This document shows positions 17,452 to 29,494 of a DNA stretch of 55,719 bases, one piece after another. How positions within the stretch are numbered: the stretch's first letter is position 1; every line of letters begins with the position of its first letter. Location of the stretch: positions 1-55,719 of the forward strand of contig CANIWJ010000008.1 in the NCBI GenBank assembly GCA_947471035.1, given 5' to 3'. Source of the DNA: Verrucomicrobiota bacterium. Lineage in GTDB: Bacteria > Verrucomicrobiota > Verrucomicrobiia > Opitutales > Opitutaceae. The notes beneath the pieces were generated by a model that made no database searches, had not been told where the DNA came from, and saw nothing but the letters and a program-made list of their open reading frames with translations. The position numbers were made by a program, and so were the translations under genes.

Positions 17452-18297
17452 TCAGGTCGCGAACGGGTTGTATTCTCTTTCGTGGGCGATGGTGGTCAAC
17501 GGACCGTGCCCGGGAGCAATGACCGTATCGGGCGGGCATAGACGGAGTACACGCGCCACTTGTTCGCGCAGCCGTTTGCAGCAGAAGTAGCCGCCGCCGA
17601 CCGAACCGGCAAAGAGCAGGTCGCCGCTGATCAGCAGCGGGGCGGCGTGGGGCGCGCCGGGCGCGCGCACGAGGTAGGCGTTATGCGCCTCGGCGTGACC
17701 GGGCGTGGCCAGCGTTTCGATTACGTAGCCTGCGCATTCCATACGAGCTCCGTCAGGCAAACCGGCGGCTCCGCCCACCTTGGCTCCAATAGGGGCGAAA
17801 ACCGGCGCAGCAGGGTGCAAGCGCCGCACCTCGGACAGGCCGCCGGTATGCTCGGTCTCGGCGTGGGTAAGGAAAACCGCCGCCAAGCGTTCGACCCGCG
17901 AGGGCCAAGCACGACGCAGGCGAGTGGGGTCGGGGCCGGTATCGAAAAGCACGCCTTCGCCACCACGACAATCGGTGATAAGGTAGGCGTTGGCCGTCCC
18001 GAGACCATGAGGCGCACGCAAGGGAAAAAGGCAAAACGGCAGCCCCGATATCACAGGCAGTGGGTAACGATTCACGGCCAGCGCCTGCACGCCGCGCGGG
18101 TTCAGACCCAAGGCTGATGCCAGACGATCCAGCTCTGGCGCGGTGAAATCGTAACGGTAATCGATGGCGTCGCGTATTCGCTCCGCGCTCACAGCGGTGC
18201 GCTCGGCCAAGGCCTCGGGAGTCAGACCGGCCTGACAGAGCCCCTTTTCGAGGATGTCACCCAGCTCGTCCTCCAAAAGTGTCTGTTCGATGACCAT
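17452..18297 (-). CDS. HTH plus metallo-beta-lactamase-fold protein, altered metal motif
   Basis: The 281-aa protein starts with a small helical domain resembling an XRE-type helix-turn-helix (TPEALAERTAVSAERIRDAI, ~residues 26-45). A metallo-beta-lactamase-fold domain follows. The usual HxHxDH motif reads H145-A-E-T-E-H150, so the second histidine and the aspartate are both Glu. Later ligands H201 (TPGHAEAH), D226 (ISGDLLF) and H264 (APGHGPLTT) are kept. It is a paralogue of the gene at 27304, sharing GHGPLTT and AHER.YNPF at the end. Hydrolase activity is therefore uncertain and metal content may be altered. It is convergent with the MamK-like gene. Confidence 0.85.
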   Translation of the reverse strand: MVIEQTLLEDELGDILEKGLCQAGLTPEALAERTAVSAERIRDAIDYRYDFTAPELDRLASALGLNPRGVQALAVNRYPLPVISGLPFCLFPLRAPHGLGTANAYLITDCRGGEGVLFDTGPDPTRLRRAWPSRVERLAAVFLTHAETEHTGGLSEVRRLHPAAPVFAPIGAKVGGAAGLPDGARMECAGYVIETLATPGHAEAHNAYLVRAPGAPHAAPLLISGDLLFAGSVGGGYFCCKRLREQVARVLRLCPPDTVIAPGHGPLTTIAHEREYNPFAT

Positions 18298-18354: not shown

Positions 18355-20037
18355 TTAAGGCGTTTGCGGCAAAACTCCCTCCGGCCCGAGGCGCTCCACC
18401 AATTCGGCAATCAACGGTTCCTGCGCCAGCAACGACCAAGGCGCATTACTCGAAATGCGAACGAAGAGCTGCTCCTGCGGCCGAAGCACGCCCTGTTTTA
18501 AGACCAGGGCAATTAAGCTCAGCGCTGATCCGGGCGTGGCGTAGGGCACGGGGTGACGGTTGGCGAAGTGCCAGAACCAAACATGACGACCGGCTTCACC
18601 GAGCAAGAAAACCCGTTGTTGCGCAGGCGTGAGCGTCTTGTCTCCGACCTTTAGCTCCACCGTGCTGGATACACCTTCGGCTGTGCTCCACCCAGCGCCG
18701 GGCCAGCAGGCGTCCGGGGTGTGCGACGCGACCAAACTTACCGGCGCCTGACCGGCGGCCCAAGCAGCCAGATACACCGTAACCACCACGAGTCGCTCCG
18801 GGGGCCCGTTCACGTAGGTGCGCTGCAACAGGTGTTCCGTGCGCAGGGTTGGAGCGAAACGGTAAAGCTCGGAGTCTGAATCGGTGCGCCATCCCGGCAT
18901 GGATTTCGGCAACAAGGTTTCCAGCCATTCCTGCTTCGCGGCGGGGGCCGACACGTGGGTTGGTCGAAGCACCCAAATTATCAGCGCAACACTCAATGCG
19001 AAACCGAGCATCCCAATCGTGAACGCACGCACCCATCGTCCAACCAGACGGCGAGAGGGTTCAGTCGAGTGCGCAGGCACCGGTTTGCCTGGTATTTCCG
19101 GCTCCAGCTGGTGGCTTCGTTCGCGCCGGGCCAAAAACCAAGCTAGACCAGTCAGACCGGCAGTGCCCGCGATGAGTATACTGAAACCCGTGAGGTCATG
19201 CCATCGCTCCAAATCATAGCCCTGAGCGGCTAACAGGGTCAGGATTAACGAACGGACATAGTTTAGCGCGAGCGCCCAAGGCGCGGCCACCACCATCACT
19301 GTTGCGCGAGCCAGCCAACCGCGAGGAATGACGGCGGCGAGGAAAACCGCGGCGTAAACGCAGGAAAATAAACTGCGCACCCCGCTGCAGGCTTCGTCCA
19401 CACCGACTTGGCCGCGCGGGAGTTCAATGACGGCACCCATTCGGTGGGCCGCCACGCCCGCCAAATCAAGGCCGCGAACAACCCACTCCGTTATCCAAAG
19501 CTGCAATTCCAGCGTAAGCCGCATCTGCGTGCCGGGCGGCAAGGGCGCGCTTAAAAAAAACAGAACAAGAATCGCGCCGGAGCAGGCGTTGAGCGGCAGG
19601 AGACGCACATCGCGATGCCCCGCGACGAATCCAGCGGTTGCGAGTAACAGGCAGAGGGCGACAGTGCCTAGCCAGAGCGACAGGGGGCTTTGCGCAGTAA
19701 GGGCGGCGGCGCTGAATCCAGTCGCGACGAGGGTAAGCAGGGCCAGCAACCCCAGGCTGAGGGTGAGCGCCGCCCAGCCCCGCCCGCCAGCGTGGTAACG
19801 CTTAGAACCGCGCCGGGCCTCGGCGATCAGTGCCAAGCCTGCGGGCAGCATAAAAAGACCGTGGGCAAGATCGGGATTGGCAATCCACTCCGGCCCCAGC
19901 CACGCCACCCACACCACGACCAGGCCTGCCAGGCAAAGAAGGCTTGTGGCCGCGAGCGCGTTCAGATTGCGCAAACTCGCCGCATAGTCGCCAAAGGCCC
20001 CGGGCGCGGACGAACTGAAATTGGGCGGGATGGACAT
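18355..20037 (-). CDS. Exosortase fused to an EpsI-like domain
   Basis: The 560-aa protein has about eight membrane helices and the exosortase catalytic residues Cys217 in VDEACSGVRSL, Arg262 in LNYVRSLIL and His280 in ERWHDLTGF. Exosortases are membrane transpeptidase-like enzymes that process the C-terminal PEP-CTERM signal of exported proteins. After a linker (~300-330) and another membrane helix (~333-352), residues ~365-560 form a soluble domain resembling EpsI (LLPKSMPGW, VTVYLAAW, HTPDACWPGAGW). It is divergent from a gene whose product has a PEP-CTERM-type tail and faces the same regulatory gap. The exact exosortase subtype is not assigned. Confidence 0.92.
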   Translation of the reverse strand: MSIPPNFSSSAPGAFGDYAASLRNLNALAATSLLCLAGLVVVWVAWLGPEWIANPDLAHGLFMLPAGLALIAEARRGSKRYHAGGRGWAALTLSLGLLALLTLVATGFSAAALTAQSPLSLWLGTVALCLLLATAGFVAGHRDVRLLPLNACSGAILVLFFLSAPLPPGTQMRLTLELQLWITEWVVRGLDLAGVAAHRMGAVIELPRGQVGVDEACSGVRSLFSCVYAAVFLAAVIPRGWLARATVMVVAAPWALALNYVRSLILTLLAAQGYDLERWHDLTGFSILIAGTAGLTGLAWFLARRERSHQLEPEIPGKPVPAHSTEPSRRLVGRWVRAFTIGMLGFALSVALIIWVLRPTHVSAPAAKQEWLETLLPKSMPGWRTDSDSELYRFAPTLRTEHLLQRTYVNGPPERLVVVTVYLAAWAAGQAPVSLVASHTPDACWPGAGWSTAEGVSSTVELKVGDKTLTPAQQRVFLLGEAGRHVWFWHFANRHPVPYATPGSALSLIALVLKQGVLRPQEQLFVRISSNAPWSLLAQEPLIAELVERLGPEGVLPQTP

Positions 20038-20180
20038 GCAACAGAGAGGGACGGCGGGATAGGGCGGAAGATTGCCCCAACTTGATGTTAAGACGCCGGA
20101 ACTGGCCAGCCCGCACTACACGATGCTAGAACGTGCGCCCCACCCGGTTAAGTAGATATTCTGAGTCGGCGAGGGTTGTT

Positions 20181-20194
20181 TTTACCGGGGTAAA
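20181..20194. promoter_or_regulatory. Palindrome TTTACC-GG-GGTAAA upstream of the PEP-CTERM gene
   Basis: A perfect 6-bp inverted repeat with a 2-base centre ends 17 bases before the ATG of the PEP-CTERM protein gene, in the divergent gap with the exosortase. It is a plausible operator. Its function is unproven, but see the similar site at 15562. Confidence 0.4.
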
Positions 20195-20211
20195 CGGTGT
20201 TTATTACAACC

Positions 20212-21075
20212 ATGCCACCCTGCATTACCCTTAGACTGCTCGCGCTGTGCGGGATTTTGCTTGGACTCACCGCTTCGGTGAAGGCGGGTTCCGCGACCGA
20301 CATCACCGGCCTCTACTTTACCGGTATCGACAATAATGGCACCACTTTGGCGGGCGGCACTGCGGACCCGCACTGGAGTGTCACCTACGCCAATGTCGGC
20401 GGCTCGACCAATAATAGCTACATCGGTCCTGCGTATGTGGCGACCACTACCGACCCCGGCTGGGTGTCCAATTCCACCACTTCGAAATGGATCGTGCCGC
20501 CCGGTGGCTCGGGTGGCGACGGCGGCTACAACCTGCCGGGCAACGGCACCTCAGGTAACAACGCGGCGTATTACATCTACACCCTCGCCTTCACCATTCA
20601 GGGCACCGGCACGGGCACCGCGACAAATCAGATCTCGATCGGCATCACCATCGCGGCTGACGACATTTATTCAATCTACGTTAATCCGAATCTTAGAAAC
20701 AACGGGGACATTGCAAACAACGTGACCCCCGCCGTGACCAACAACAATGGAGCATGGTCCAACACCACCTCGGCTACTTTGGCTAATTTCGGCTCGAATA
20801 ACAACTCGGTGTTTCAGATCGGCACCAACAAGCTCACCATCTTGGTGCGCAACTCCAACAGTATAACCGGCTCATCCAACAACACCGCTCTGAATCCGAC
20901 CGGACTACTGTTTTACCAGCAAAACAACCTGGTCACCATCGACGGTCGCGTGATTCCCGAAGTGGGCACGGTTTTACCTCTGTTAGGTGCGGCCCTGGCT
21001 TATTGGCTGAGTCTGCGTCGCCGTCGCGAGGTCGGGCAACTGTTTGAGGGTGACTCGCTGCGGCTTAGGGTTTGA
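20212..21075 (+). CDS. PEP-CTERM-type exported protein, probable exosortase substrate
   Basis: The 287-aa protein has a signal peptide (LRLLALCGILLGLTASVKAG, about residues 6-25) and a Gly/Asn/Thr-rich, probably beta-rich body with several aromatic residues. The C-terminal sorting signal is a variant PEP motif (IPEVGTVLP) followed by a hydrophobic helix (LLGAALAYWLSL) and an Arg cluster (RRRRE). Unusually, about 16 residues follow the Arg cluster, where most PEP-CTERM proteins stop. A GTG at 20197 would add five residues; the ATG at 20212 gives a standard signal peptide. It is divergent from the exosortase and overlaps the convergent TPR gene by 11 bases. Confidence 0.87.
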   Translation: MPPCITLRLLALCGILLGLTASVKAGSATDITGLYFTGIDNNGTTLAGGTADPHWSVTYANVGGSTNNSYIGPAYVATTTDPGWVSNSTTSKWIVPPGGSGGDGGYNLPGNGTSGNNAAYYIYTLAFTIQGTGTGTATNQISIGITIAADDIYSIYVNPNLRNNGDIANNVTPAVTNNNGAWSNTTSATLANFGSNNNSVFQIGTNKLTILVRNSNSITGSSNNTALNPTGLLFYQQNNLVTIDGRVIPEVGTVLPLLGAALAYWLSLRRRREVGQLFEGDSLRLRV

Positions 21076-23062: not shown

Positions 23063-24409
23063 TTAACGTCCGACGGCGAGGACCTCGACCTCAATCAGTG
23101 CTTTCTGCGGCAGGGTACTAACCGGGAAAGAGGTGCGCGCAGGTTTCTGCGGGTTGAGTTTCGCATGGTTAAAGAAACGCCCATAGGCTTCGTTCCACAG
23201 GTCGATGTTTTTACGGAACGCATCGCCCACCACCGGATAGGCGCGCAGTTGCACCACATCGGAAGGTTTGAGTCCGGCCGCCGCCAACCGATTACGCAAG
23301 GTGAGCAAGGCGGTGACACCTTGGTCGTGCATGTCGCCGCCGGCCGATCCAATCGCCCCTGCAAACCAAGTCACTGGCCGCAACCGGGCGACGGTGCCAG
23401 TGCTGCTAATCTGTGCTTCCGCCGTGCCGGTCATTTCGAGCCATGGATTGGTCGCCGCCACAAGGTCATGGCCGTTGAAGGGACCGCGCGCATCGGCGGC
23501 GGCGGCATACACTTCGATCTCAATTAACTGTCCGTTAGAGCTGAAACCGGGGCCGGTGACCAAAGCGAGCGCAGGGCGCAAATCGGGGTGCTTAGCCATG
23601 AACGCTTTTCCAAACTCCGCGCCGAAGCCCGCAAAATCGACATCTTTAGTCCCCGGGGTCGCCGAGAGGAGAGCGCGCACGTAGAAAACATCTTCCCAGT
23701 GGAAACCTTGGGCCGCGATGGATTGCTCCAGTTTCTTAAAAATCGAGCGGCTCTGCTCGGCAACCGAGCCATAACGTTCAACGGTGCGTTCAGGTTTGGT
23801 CAGGTCGGCTGGATCGGCAAGTACACCGGCGGAAAACAACATGGGAGAACCAGGCAAAACCACCGCTGCGCCCGAGGAGCCAAAAGGGCCCTCGCCGGCG
23901 AGACGAATGTAAGGATTAAACGGCGAAGGTTTACCCGGCGCGCTGGCCGAAGCCGGGGCAAAGAAGGCCGCGACCGCCTCAGCTTGAAGCGCTGTGCCGG
24001 TGCCGCCGAAAAGAGCGTCGGCGGCAAGCGTGGTGCGTGACGGAGTGTGACCGGCGGGGGCGAAGAATTCGCGCCACGCCGCGTTCCAGGATTCCATATC
24101 CAGCGTGCCATCGGGGCGCGGCGTCAGACTGGCGCGCACGTAGGCGATGTTTTTACGATCCAGCCCGAGCAAGGCGAGATTGCGCTCCAGGCCGACGAGG
24201 GCGGATGCGCCGTCTGGGGAAGGCTGCCCGGCGACGAAGACCTTGGCGGCATAGGGGGAAACGGTGGCGGATACCGAATAGGCGACGTTTTCCAAGGTTT
24301 TGAAAACAATGGGTTCGGCTTGTGCGAAGGCACCGGCACACCAGGCCGCGCTGCTCACGCCGCAAACGACCAAACTGCGGAGGAATCGATTAAGGGAAAG
24401 GGAAGGCAT
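23063..24409 (-). CDS. Exported protein with three RidA-like domains
   Basis: The 448-aa protein has a Sec-type signal peptide (RFLRSLVVCGVSSAAWCAGAFAQA) and three consecutive RidA/YjgF-like units at about residues 42-149, 186-303 and 341-448. Each shows a strand pair, the VRA or LRA element (NIAYVRASLTP, DVFYVRALLS, DVVQLRAYPV) and a closing segment with an arginine (PSRTTL, LRPALALV, PARTSFPV). RidA proteins hydrolyse reactive 2-imino or enamino acids. Cytoplasmic single-domain forms act as trimers, so a covalent triple could mimic a trimer in one chain. It is divergent from a Tat-exported amino-acid-oxidase-like gene, 90 bases away. The ATG at 24409 gives the best signal peptide. Confidence 0.85.
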   Translation of the reverse strand: MPSLSLNRFLRSLVVCGVSSAAWCAGAFAQAEPIVFKTLENVAYSVSATVSPYAAKVFVAGQPSPDGASALVGLERNLALLGLDRKNIAYVRASLTPRPDGTLDMESWNAAWREFFAPAGHTPSRTTLAADALFGGTGTALQAEAVAAFFAPASASAPGKPSPFNPYIRLAGEGPFGSSGAAVVLPGSPMLFSAGVLADPADLTKPERTVERYGSVAEQSRSIFKKLEQSIAAQGFHWEDVFYVRALLSATPGTKDVDFAGFGAEFGKAFMAKHPDLRPALALVTGPGFSSNGQLIEIEVYAAAADARGPFNGHDLVAATNPWLEMTGTAEAQISSTGTVARLRPVTWFAGAIGSAGGDMHDQGVTALLTLRNRLAAAGLKPSDVVQLRAYPVVGDAFRKNIDLWNEAYGRFFNHAKLNPQKPARTSFPVSTLPQKALIEVEVLAVGR

Positions 24410-24499
24410 GCGAGCGGACAAAGCACGTCCCGTGCGAATTAGTGCTGCTAGAAAAAAATTTCAGCCGAGTAGGCGTGCCGACTGCTTTTCACCAACACG

Positions 24500-25699
24500 A
24501 TGCAAAGACGTGATTTCCTACGGCGTTCGGGTGCGGCAGTGGGTTTCGGGGCTATCCTAGGCGGTTCTCGCCTACTCGCCGCGACGGTCGAGAAGGCTCC
24601 GCCGCCACCCTTGCCATTGGTCACAACCAAGATTGGGCCACTTGCGCCCGTGCGCGCCAATCCCGACCGGTTGATCCGCGTATCGGTGTGCCTGCGTCCG
24701 TTTCGCGCCCAAGGGCCGCGCATCGAGGGCGAGCGCATCGGCGAAAAGGTGGTAATTCACAACTACGGCCACGGCGGCAGTGGCTGGTCGCTTTCATGGG
24801 GTGCGGCCGCCATCGCGGTGCGCGAGGCGCTGGCGACCGGCGAACGTGAGTTTGCCGTGATCGGTTGCGGGGCGATCGGGCTCACCACCGCGCTCCTGCT
24901 CCAGCAATCCGGCGTCAAGGTGACGATCTATGCCAAGGATAGACCAAACGAGGCGCGTTCGGCTTTTGCCACCGGCGTGTGGTCGCCCGATTCGCGCATC
25001 TGCTCGGAGGAGGCGGCGACGCCGGCCTTCGCCGCGCTGTGGGAAAAAATGTGCCGTGATTCCTATCGTAAATATCAGACGCTGCTCGGTATCGCGGGAG
25101 CTCCGGTGGAGTGGCGCGACCGGTATTCGGTGTCGTCGATCCCCTTCGAGGAATTACGCAAGAAGCGCGAAGCCGAGGAAGGGCCGATTAAATTCGGCAA
25201 GTTTGGCGATCTGGTCAAAAATCTCACGCCCGGCACCGAGGAACTTGCGCCCGGCACCCATCCCTTCGGCGCTCCCTATGTGCGGCGTGCGACCTCGATG
25301 GTGTTTAACATCGCCTCTTTTCAACGCATCCTGGTTCAGGACTTTCTCGCCGAAGGTGGACGTATCGTGCGTCGCGAATTTAACACGGTGGCGGATTTCG
25401 CCAACCTGCCGGAAAAGACCGTCGTGCACGCCACGGGTTATGGTGCGCGCGCCTTGCTGGGCGACGAGTCCGTGGTGCCGGTGCGTGGCCAACTCGCGTT
25501 GCTCATCCCCCAACCGGAGGTGAATTACAGCCTCAGCGGCGAGGACGTTTCCATGGTCTCGCGTTCGGATGGCATCGTGGTTCAGACCAGTAAACCCACC
25601 GACTTCAACAATACCGACGAGGTGCCAAACCGCGCCGACTCGGAGGCGGGGGTTTTGGCCTTGGCTAAGATCATGGCTCCCTTGTGGCGCGCGGTTTAA
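24500..25699 (+). CDS. Tat-exported FAD-dependent oxidoreductase of the D-amino-acid oxidase family
   Basis: The 399-aa protein begins with a twin-arginine signal (MQRRDFLRRSGAAVGFGA). It contains the DAAO hallmark NYGHGGSGWSLSWG, but at residues 88-101, ahead of the FAD dinucleotide motif VIGCGAIGLTTALL at 120-133. In classical DAAO the order is reversed. Further DAAO-like pieces are ATGVWSPDSR and VVHATGYGARALLGDE, and the chain then ends with GVLALAKIMAPLW. The expected reaction is oxidation of an amino acid (probably a D-form or glycine-like amine) to an imino acid with H2O2. The exported RidA neighbour would hydrolyse that product. Substrate is not determined by sequence. Confidence 0.85.
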   Translation: MQRRDFLRRSGAAVGFGAILGGSRLLAATVEKAPPPPLPLVTTKIGPLAPVRANPDRLIRVSVCLRPFRAQGPRIEGERIGEKVVIHNYGHGGSGWSLSWGAAAIAVREALATGEREFAVIGCGAIGLTTALLLQQSGVKVTIYAKDRPNEARSAFATGVWSPDSRICSEEAATPAFAALWEKMCRDSYRKYQTLLGIAGAPVEWRDRYSVSSIPFEELRKKREAEEGPIKFGKFGDLVKNLTPGTEELAPGTHPFGAPYVRRATSMVFNIASFQRILVQDFLAEGGRIVRREFNTVADFANLPEKTVVHATGYGARALLGDESVVPVRGQLALLIPQPEVNYSLSGEDVSMVSRSDGIVVQTSKPTDFNNTDEVPNRADSEAGVLALAKIMAPLWRAV

Positions 25700-27303: not shown

Positions 27304-28359
27304 TTACTTGGACCGGGATCGGCGCGATTTGAATGCGACCTGGCCCTCGCGTCCCGGACGGGCGGACTTGGAGGGTTTCTTGGTCTGCGGGCTGGGTTTC
27401 GCTTGGTTGAGATCGGTGCGACCGGCTTTACCGGCGCGAGGCTTGGCCGGCAGGGCGACGGCGCGCGCGGGTTTCTGGGGCGTCGCGTCAGCTGTGGCGC
27501 CAGTCGGGTCGGCGGGGTCGATTTTAAAGATGCGATCCGGAGCGAAAAACGGGTTATATTTCCGTTCATGGGCAAGGGTAGTGAGCGGACCGTGGCCGGG
27601 GCCGATGACGGTATCCTTGGGCAAACTAAAGATGCGGGCTCGGGTGTTTTTTAACTGCTCACGGAAATGGGTCGGGCTGCCGCCGATCGAGGAGGAGAAA
27701 AGGGCGTCGCCACAAAGGGCGAGCGGCCAGCTCAGTCCTTGCACATAAAAAGTGGTAAGACCGGGCGAATGCCCCCAAGTCGCCAAGGCTTTGATGGCGA
27801 TCACGCCGAGGTGGAAATAGTCATTGGCGGCAAAGGTCCGCGCGCCGGGAAAATCCACCGGCTCGCGTTCGCCGGACCAGACTTCGGCGCCGGTTGCCTT
27901 CACGAGAGCCGACAGCGCGGCGATGTGATCTTCGTGGGTGTGGGTGAGCAGGATGCACTTTACCCGGAGTTTTTCGGCGGCGATGAAATCGATTAAATCG
28001 GAGGCGTCGGTTCCGGTATCGATCACAGCGGCCTCGCGGGATTTGGGGTCCCACACCAGGTAGTTGTTCACCGTCTGGGTACGGAAGGGAGTGTTAAACA
28101 TGGCAAGGCCGCGCGGGAAAATCGGCGCTTTCGGGTAGGCTTCTTTTTTGGCCAGCACCTCAAGAGCGTCGGGCGAAAGCTTAAGGTGCCGGGCGAGGCG
28201 GCGAATGAGAGGCAGGCGGGCTTCACCAGCCTTAATGGCATCGAGTTCGGCGGGCGTGATTTCGGCGCGGGTGGCGAGCTCGGCGTCGGTAATGCCGTAA
28301 CCCCGCTGGGCCTTGGCGATCACATCGGCAAAATTATCTTCGAGAGGAATGAGCGGCAT
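27304..28359 (-). CDS. HTH plus metallo-beta-lactamase-fold hydrolase
   Basis: The 351-aa protein has an N-terminal XRE-like helical domain (ITDAELATRAEITPAELDAI, ~residues 23-42). The metallo-beta-lactamase-fold domain carries an intact HxHxDH motif (H140-T-H142-E-D144-H145) plus later ligands in TWGHSPG, LCGDALF and GPGHGPLTT, so a binuclear metal site is expected. The layout suggests a glyoxalase II-like hydrolase. Beyond residue ~275 comes a disordered, Lys/Pro/Ala-rich tail of ~75 residues absent from its paralogue at 17452. The upstream in-frame extension lacks family character, so the ATG at 28359 (MPLIPLEDNFADV) is used. Confidence 0.88.
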   Translation of the reverse strand: MPLIPLEDNFADVIAKAQRGYGITDAELATRAEITPAELDAIKAGEARLPLIRRLARHLKLSPDALEVLAKKEAYPKAPIFPRGLAMFNTPFRTQTVNNYLVWDPKSREAAVIDTGTDASDLIDFIAAEKLRVKCILLTHTHEDHIAALSALVKATGAEVWSGEREPVDFPGARTFAANDYFHLGVIAIKALATWGHSPGLTTFYVQGLSWPLALCGDALFSSSIGGSPTHFREQLKNTRARIFSLPKDTVIGPGHGPLTTLAHERKYNPFFAPDRIFKIDPADPTGATADATPQKPARAVALPAKPRAGKAGRTDLNQAKPSPQTKKPSKSARPGREGQVAFKSRRSRSK

Positions 28360-28408
28360 GTAGAATAAGGGGGCGCAGGGAGAGAGCACCAAGTGAGTTA
28401 CAATCGTT

Positions 28409-29494
28409 CTATAAACGGACGGGCAGTCCGGAGCGCGAGGATTGATAAATGGCTTGGATAAGGGCAACGGCTGCGCGGCCAGCCTCGCCATCTACCAAGG
28501 GCGGTCGATTTTCGTGTATCGCGGCGATAAAATCCGTGAATTGCTCGCGGTGAGCGTCGCCCCACTTCCAAGCCGAGTCGGTCGAACTGGCCGCCGTTTC
28601 CTGCGTGGCGAGGCGGGTACCCCCGGTGGCGATTTGAAGCGCATGAGCAGAGGCGGGCGGGCCGTTGACGACTGGCTGACCTTTCAAGGCCAGGATATGG
28701 AGTTCATCACCTTCCAATACTGCCGTGCCTTCCGTGCCGTGCAACGCGAGTCGCGCAGGAAACCCCGGATAAGTAGCAGTGCTGGCAAACAAGGTTCCCA
28801 ACGCTCCATTGGCAAAGGTCAGCGTGGCGCAAACCAAGTCTTCGACCTCAATGCGTTGGTGGGCGGCGGTGGCCACCCGGGCGGAAACCTCACGGACCGG
28901 GCCACAAAACCAGAGAAGCAAATCCAGCGTGTGAATTCCTTGCGTCATTAAACAACCGCCTCCGTCCATCGCCCAGGTGCCGCGCCCTGCGCCGGAGTCA
29001 TAATACTCCTGAGTACGATACCAAGCGATGCGAACCTCGGCGGCAACGAGCCGACCCAACGCGTTTTTTTGCAGCAACGCATGGATCGCCTGACTGGCAG
29101 GGTCGAAGCGGTGCTGGCAAATAATCGCGAGCTGTCGGCCGGTTGCCTGCTGCGCGTCGATCAGCTCGGTGCACTCGGCGACAGAAACCGCCATCGGTTT
29201 TTCGATGATCAGATGTTTTCCCGCGCGCAGCGCCTCCGCGCCGATGCGCGCATGCAGTCCGCTAGGCACGCAGAGCGCGATGGCATCGATGTGCGGGTTG
29301 GCGAGGACTTCAACCCAGCTCGCCGCAGAAAGTTTATACTTAGCGGCGAAAGCAGCGGCCTTGGCCGGATCTTCGTCCACGCAATGGCTCAAGCGGGCCA
29401 AAGCAGGTAACTCCCTCATCGCATTGGCCTGAGTCGTCGCGATGGCACCGCACCCGACCAAAGCGAAATTCAGGGGCGGGGGCAGGGTGGACAT
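28409..29494 (-). CDS. Gfo/Idh/MocA-family oxidoreductase
   Basis: The 361-aa protein has the Rossmann NAD(P)-binding start NFALVGCGAIATTQANAMRE, the HIDAIALCVPSGLHARIGAEAL segment and the family motif GKHLIIEKPMAVSVAE. A substrate-binding domain follows with WAMDGGGCLMTQGIHTLDLLLW, whose histidine fits the catalytic position. Members oxidise or reduce sugars, inositols or related alcohols; the substrate here is unknown. It lies between the cysteine desulfurase and HTH-MBL genes on the minus strand with gaps of 54 and 49 bases, suggesting one transcript without an obvious shared pathway. Confidence 0.9.
   Translation of the reverse strand: MSTLPPPLNFALVGCGAIATTQANAMRELPALARLSHCVDEDPAKAAAFAAKYKLSAASWVEVLANPHIDAIALCVPSGLHARIGAEALRAGKHLIIEKPMAVSVAECTELIDAQQATGRQLAIICQHRFDPASQAIHALLQKNALGRLVAAEVRIAWYRTQEYYDSGAGRGTWAMDGGGCLMTQGIHTLDLLLWFCGPVREVSARVATAAHQRIEVEDLVCATLTFANGALGTLFASTATYPGFPARLALHGTEGTAVLEGDELHILALKGQPVVNGPPASAHALQIATGGTRLATQETAASSTDSAWKWGDAHREQFTDFIAAIHENRPPLVDGEAGRAAVALIQAIYQSSRSGLPVRL

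Follow-up and report, generated by a model that had tools for sequence, protein, structure and literature searches.

The window, which is the whole analyzed stretch of 55,719 nucleotides from an Opitutaceae assembly (92% complete, 6.6% contamination), encodes a flavoprotein with a naturally circularly permuted D-amino-acid oxidase (DAAO) fold, a relative rather than a regular member of the DAAO/DASPO family. Its gene diverges from that of a protein of exported type, which carries three Rid units in tandem. Judged from their sequences, the two proteins probably form a periplasmic module for amino-acid oxidation, in which the flavoprotein would make an imine, the triple-Rid protein would hydrolyze it and the electrons would likely pass to a cytochrome.

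Organization of the Locus

The triple-Rid gene (23063..24409, minus strand, stop codon included) encodes 448 aa from the ATG at 24409, and the flavoprotein gene (24500..25699, plus strand) encodes 399 aa. The ATG at 24409 is kept as start codon in the two nearest relatives, while the alternative upstream TTG at 24421 is missing in one relative (L016). Because this start is conserved, the gap between the divergent genes measures exactly 90 bases (24410..24499), which confirms the arrangement described in the earlier note. No sigma-70-like, promoter or terminator match was found in these 90 bp.

Two related proteins, encoded at 17452..18297 and 27304..28491 and 33% identical over 284 columns, flank the pair about 9 kb apart; the metallo-beta-lactamase fold is confirmed by Pfam only for the protein of 27304..28491. 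At 18355..21075, an exosortase gene (PF09721 and DUF3485) adjoins the gene of a small exported-type protein, the end of which resembles, by eye, a PEP-CTERM sorting substrate.

Circular Permutation of the Flavoprotein

The flavoprotein matches the Pfam family DAO (PF01266, 97.8 bits) as well as DAAO/DASPO structures by sequence and fold, in line with the family membership given in the earlier note, which also read the Tat-type signal (by eye) but did not notice the permuted order. In the PDB sequence match with the D-amino acid oxidase 7ct4, residues 13-111 align to 269-376 and residues 117-349 to 25-256 of the oxidase, so that the segments follow each other in reversed order. The same reversal is seen with a family profile of 13 flavoprotein sequences. 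When the sequence is rotated to place the FAD half first, a single alignment results (6-352 on 26-370 of 7ct4, 70.0 bits), whereas the unrotated sequence aligns in two pieces (28.1 and 42.3 bits); the whole-sequence scores are similar (75.1 and 76.3). Compared with the domain order of DAAO/DASPO, the C-terminal-type segment thus stands first, at residues 57-111 (24668..24832, plus strand; LRPxR ... HNYGHGGSGWSLSWG and a helix), and is followed at residues 113-399 by the FAD-binding (GCGAIG) and substrate half (24836..25696, plus strand), which matches human DASPO 1-264.

An AlphaFold2 model built from a 13-sequence alignment (mean pLDDT 84.2, pTM 0.83) has a helix at 92-111 that runs into the first Rossmann strand at 117-121. 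Among solved structures, its fold comes nearest to those of D-aspartate and D-amino-acid oxidases (Z 19-21). Residues 113-396 of the model superimpose on residues 1-264 of human DASPO (6rkf; Z 21.4, rmsd 3.0, 255 aligned), and the sequential aligner leaves the remainder of the chain unaligned, as expected for a permuted protein.

The HNYGHGG segment precedes GxGxxG in 37/37 aligned rows (the window and 36 relatives), which were chosen by an HNYGHGG-type motif and include near-copies (L022-L024 of L021). They come from Opitutales, other classmates, Solimonas, Dyella, Frateuria, Erythrobacter, an uncultured gammaproteobacterium and Acetobacteraceae. Left out of the alignment were the repeats of L017 and L021 (L067, L068), three plasmid matches, the fragment in G489, two fragments in G1056 and one distant Verrucomicrobiota match (L014 of G166), in which the segments follow the usual DAAO order. 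Since all 37 rows share the order, the permutation is not confined to the genome of the window, and because they come from many assemblies, an assembly error was ruled out.

No report of a permuted DAAO was found in the openly licensed literature, covered mostly as titles and the beginnings of abstracts. The available part of PMC12667903 contains no mention of one, and PMC11334425, as far as its text is available, concerns a different flavin domain and was discarded as such a report. The flavoprotein would therefore be the first natural case in the literature searched. The permutation appears to be fixed in a lineage that spans two phyla, and it represents an evolutionary experiment on a thoroughly studied enzyme, in which the termini were moved while the FAD and substrate motifs were retained.

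Active Site and Export Signal of the Flavoprotein

Arg66 (codon 24695-24697, plus strand) aligns to the carboxylate-binding arginine of DAAO, which we take to be the residue labeled R283/R285, and is present in 37/37 rows, so that the flavoprotein should bind a carboxylate. The glycines of HNYGHGG and those of GxGxxG are equally found in every row, and Trp161 in 35 of the 37. The active-site tyrosine of DAAO, presumably the residue preceding the PR/PG motif, varies among the rows: the window has Ser at position 351, where 15/37 rows have Tyr, and the substrate may therefore differ from that of DAAO.

The replaced tyrosine, together with the loss of the following GGT motif in the subgroup of the window, would fit an enzyme that oxidizes something other than an amino acid, such as an opine, a hydroxy acid or a modified amine, with the Rid protein acting on the product or a ligand of it; the weaker structural matches also include opine dehydrogenase (7fgp) and glycine oxidase. 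We regard such a substrate as unlikely, given the carboxylate-type arginine and the HNYGHGG glycines in all rows, the top sequence and fold matches to DAAO/DASPO, and a Rid partner that points to an imine product. A small amino acid that is bound by its carboxylate through Arg66 and dehydrogenated to the 2-imino acid is the reaction that we propose.

An RR pair stands ahead of the enzyme part in 36/37 rows, although its setting is not always Tat-like (L013, L048), and several rows have lipobox-like sequences (by regular expression and by eye). The flavoprotein of the window starts with a twin-arginine signal (MQRRDFLRR...LAA; 24500..24583, plus strand) and, by this motif and by eye, appears to be of the Tat-exported type.

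Units and Arginines of the Triple-Rid Protein

The partner protein starts with a putative signal peptide, MPSLSLNRFLRSLVVCGVSSAAWCAGAFA (24323..24409, minus strand; by eye), followed by Rid unit 1 (23942..24310), unit 2 (23486..23914) and unit 3 (23066..23446) on the same strand. The whole protein matches Ribonuc_L-PSP (PF01042) with 71.6 bits over two stretches. Of the isolated units, unit 3 scores 47.9 bits and unit 2, with 24.4 bits, stays below the cut-off of 27.3, while unit 1 alone gave no Pfam match. A five-sequence profile of unit 1 matches the Rid3 protein PSPTO3006 (E 7e-11) and many RidA structures, and the Rid3-like unit 2 matches PFL1385 and PSPTO3006. Profile-profile comparison of the three units with each other, from 13 sequences of both triple-Rid types, gave probabilities of 99.1, 99.5 and 98.9. 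Unit 1 is hence a Rid unit as well, and the three RidA-like units that the earlier note had read behind a signal peptide are borne out by Pfam and the profiles.

The catalytic-type arginine is present in unit 1 (PSRTT, codon 24035-24037) and unit 3 (KPARTS, codon 23135-23137), and unit 2 has a leucine in its place (RPALA, codon 23567-23569). All eight proteins of the window type (those of the window, L015, L016, G158, G134, G363, G289 and G432, with L015 being the same record as G292) retain the arginine within xxRTT of unit 1 and KPxRTxFPV of unit 3 but have lost that of unit 2, so a chain has at most two arginine sites. The reading of the earlier note depended on RidA active-site residues in the three units, and for the arginine this holds in two of them but not in the middle one.

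A predicted model from three sequences reached a pLDDT of 35; by analogy with known trimers, the protein may form a pseudo-trimer. As one unit has lost the catalytic arginine in all eight members, the protein lends itself to testing directly what number of sites a RidA trimer requires. A scan of viral contigs gave no relative of the Rid protein.

Pairing Within the Order

Among 273 genomes of the order, including that of the window, the flavoprotein occurs in nine (1e-10; G389 and G465 are counted here) and the window-type Rid protein in eight. This latter count leaves out G119, which has only the second triple-Rid type described below (paralog B), and G360, which has a single exported-type Rid unit. 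The single-unit protein of G360 (L033, G360:C33) has a signal peptide by eye.

Both genes are found in seven genomes and are adjacent in 7/7. Six of these carry the intact divergent pair (G000, which is the genome of the window, G292, G158, G134, G432 and G363), and one further MAG beyond the order sample (L016) carries another. In the seventh genome, G489, the last Rid residues abut the last flavoprotein residues (L061 4723-5143); such an arrangement would result from a single deletion that cut through the two genes, an event that seems to have occurred. The Fisher p-value is 4e-10 without the genome of the window and 1e-8 without G292 as well, by which a chance neighborhood of the two genes is unlikely. 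The exceptions within the order are G289, with the Rid gene but no flavoprotein, and G465 and G389 (75 and 80% complete), with the flavoprotein but no Rid gene. Three other genomes of the genus of the window have neither gene. The adjacency across Verrucomicrobiota that the earlier note asked about is found in all co-carriers sampled in this order, but the pairing was seen in this order only.

Pairing in a single order, and the occurrence of each gene alone within it, would be expected if the two genes were neighbors by inheritance only and shared no function. This explanation is very improbable: the adjacency is maintained between pairs at 32-53% protein identity, in G489 a single deletion seems to have removed the greater part of the two genes, and the second triple-Rid gene likewise adjoins an amine oxidase gene.

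A Second Triple-Rid Cluster

Paralog B is encoded on another contig of the window's genome (L039 896-7209; G000:C5:30895-37208), in a tight cluster on one strand that comprises a Tat-type amine oxidase (PF01593), a cytochrome c, an ammonium transporter (PF00909), the triple-Rid protein and an aldehyde dehydrogenase. By tblastn, the first four genes occur in identical order in 7/7 paralog-B loci (G000, G292, G134, G158, G363, G432 and G119), and the aldehyde dehydrogenase gene comes next in four of them (G000, G292, G158 and G119). This cluster shares the logic of amino-acid oxidation combined with a Rid protein. Together with the pair in the window, it suggests that some Opitutales may deaminate amino acids outside the cytoplasm, releasing ammonia.

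In paralog B, the arginine of unit 2 is kept in 6/6 proteins (the copy of G432 is left out), that of unit 3 is lost in 6/6 and that of unit 1 is kept in 4/6. These losses, and that of unit 2 in the window type, would suit a chaperone, a binding protein or a structural partner with degenerated units and no imine hydrolase activity. We consider this role improbable for the window type, the members of which keep both remaining arginines in proteins with identities down to 32-35% to that of the window; such retention would be hard to explain without selection. Hydrolysis of an imine is thus still the function that we favor.

An exported-type aminotransferase is encoded beside the paralog-B cluster in four of the seven stretches, and in G000 one is encoded 1.4 kb upstream of the cluster. 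In G158, the gene of a related aminotransferase, 53% identical, follows the window-type Rid gene. The window's genome has at least four copies of this aminotransferase with HisC-like family matches (G000:C99, C19, C32 and C5), which are 45-54% identical to that of G158; those of C99, C19 and C5 look exported by their N-terminus.

The Flavoprotein Outside the Order

In a phylum sample of 387 genomes, six more class members match the flavoprotein, without a Rid match at 1e-10; five of these are permuted and G166 is not. Unit profiles detected no Rid unit in 16 unpaired flavoprotein loci of 9.2-14 kb, of which 14 lie outside the order (L017-L026, L043-L046) and two inside (L062, L063), nor in 21 short loci of about 2-4 kb (L009-L013, L068-L083), among them the 4-kb locus that represents G251 and the Acetobacteraceae loci of about 4 kb. 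Seven genomes from other groups yielded no triple-Rid protein and one weak single-unit match. In a sample of the class Gammaproteobacteria, one of 274 genomes matches the flavoprotein at 1e-20, this being the genome on which the sample was centered, and three matching records are plasmids.

In the Acetobacteraceae sample, 13/200 genomes match the flavoprotein. All 14 near-full-length loci of this family have the permuted order, and in nine of the 14 a reading frame for a c-type cytochrome lies directly downstream on the same strand. Pfam confirms three of these genes (L021, which is the same gene as L068, L070 and L072). In the midpoint-rooted flavoprotein tree, all cytochrome-linked rows group in a single clade (100/100). 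The rows of Rid-paired Opitutales branch off as a basal grade within the larger clade containing them, on branches with only 92-93% support. No CxxCH reading frame of at least 80 residues is present at 13-37 kb of the window. The gene order in Acetobacteraceae and the paralogous triple-Rid cluster nevertheless suggest electron transfer to cytochrome c, and a cytochrome, not O2, may accept the electrons of the flavoprotein.

Proposed Function of the Pair

In the proposed mechanism, the flavoprotein would fold with FAD, be exported by the Tat pathway and pass on the electrons from its substrate, to a c-type cytochrome more probably than to O2. The exported triple-Rid protein would fold into a single covalent pseudo-trimer in which two sites carry an arginine, and would speed the hydrolysis of the imine to a keto acid and ammonia, which would be available for uptake. 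The coupling of the two proteins is likewise proposed. For the periplasmic module proposed in the earlier note, the adjacency, the conserved arginines and the paralogous cluster speak in favor, but each gene also occurs alone, the pairing is limited to one order and one unit has no arginine.

More tentatively, and with somewhat less than even confidence, we suggest that the permuted DAAO-fold lineage of Verrucomicrobiota, gamma- and alphaproteobacteria consists of extracytoplasmic respiratory amino-acid dehydrogenases that feed c-type cytochromes, to which one order has added an asymmetric, covalent Rid trimer with just two functional sites in each chain.

Comparison With Known Systems

Periplasmic amino-acid oxidation with a Rid protein and the triple architecture are both already known (PMC4433059, PMC5053998). 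According to the accessible text of Niehaus et al. (2015; PMC4433059), 3x-RidA proteins are presumed covalent trimers, and Rid genes cluster with those of FAD amine oxidases; among the openly licensed papers searched, this is the only one with the terms for 3x-RidA. The protein of the window shares with the 3x-RidA proteins the three tandem Rid units and may share the presumed trimer; in comparison with the part of that work available, the loss of the unit 2 arginine in 8/8 proteins and the flavoprotein partner are its own. It also has an exported-type signal, and the export of the published 3x-RidA proteins is left aside in this comparison.

The lao-cccA-ridA operon of Gluconacetobacter diazotrophicus encodes a Tat-type LAAO, a cytochrome c and RidA (PMC5053998, in part), and the same text refers to a LAAO/RidA complex in the periplasm of Chlamydomonas, with the LAO1/LAO2-RidA pair being reported in the accessible part of PMC10805672. 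Both systems resemble the window pair in that an amino-acid oxidase is exported and accompanied by a Rid protein, in the bacterium together with a cytochrome c. The oxidase of the bacterial operon, however, belongs to the PF01593 LAAO family and is no permuted DAAO, and its RidA is not described as triple in the available text. The combination of a PF01593 oxidase, a cytochrome c and a Rid protein is absent from the window pair and present in the G000:C5 cluster, which is, as far as the operon is described there, nearer to it than the window pair is.

In the portion of PMC5619798 that was available, Rid2 and Rid3 proteins act on the iminoarginine made by the D-arginine dehydrogenase DauA. The likeness lies in a Rid protein acting on the imine from a FAD-dependent D-amino-acid dehydrogenase, but those are single-domain proteins tested in vitro, and the word periplasm is absent from the main text. 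A cytoplasmic chitin-oxidation pathway also includes a ridA gene, of unknown role according to the accessible text of PMC9537276. With DAAO/DASPO (PF01266; 7ct4, 6rkf), finally, the flavoprotein of the window has in common the fold (by model), the FAD motif, the carboxylate-type arginine and HNYGHGG, while the permuted order, the Tat-type signal, the unconserved DAAO tyrosine and a subgroup without GGT are its own.
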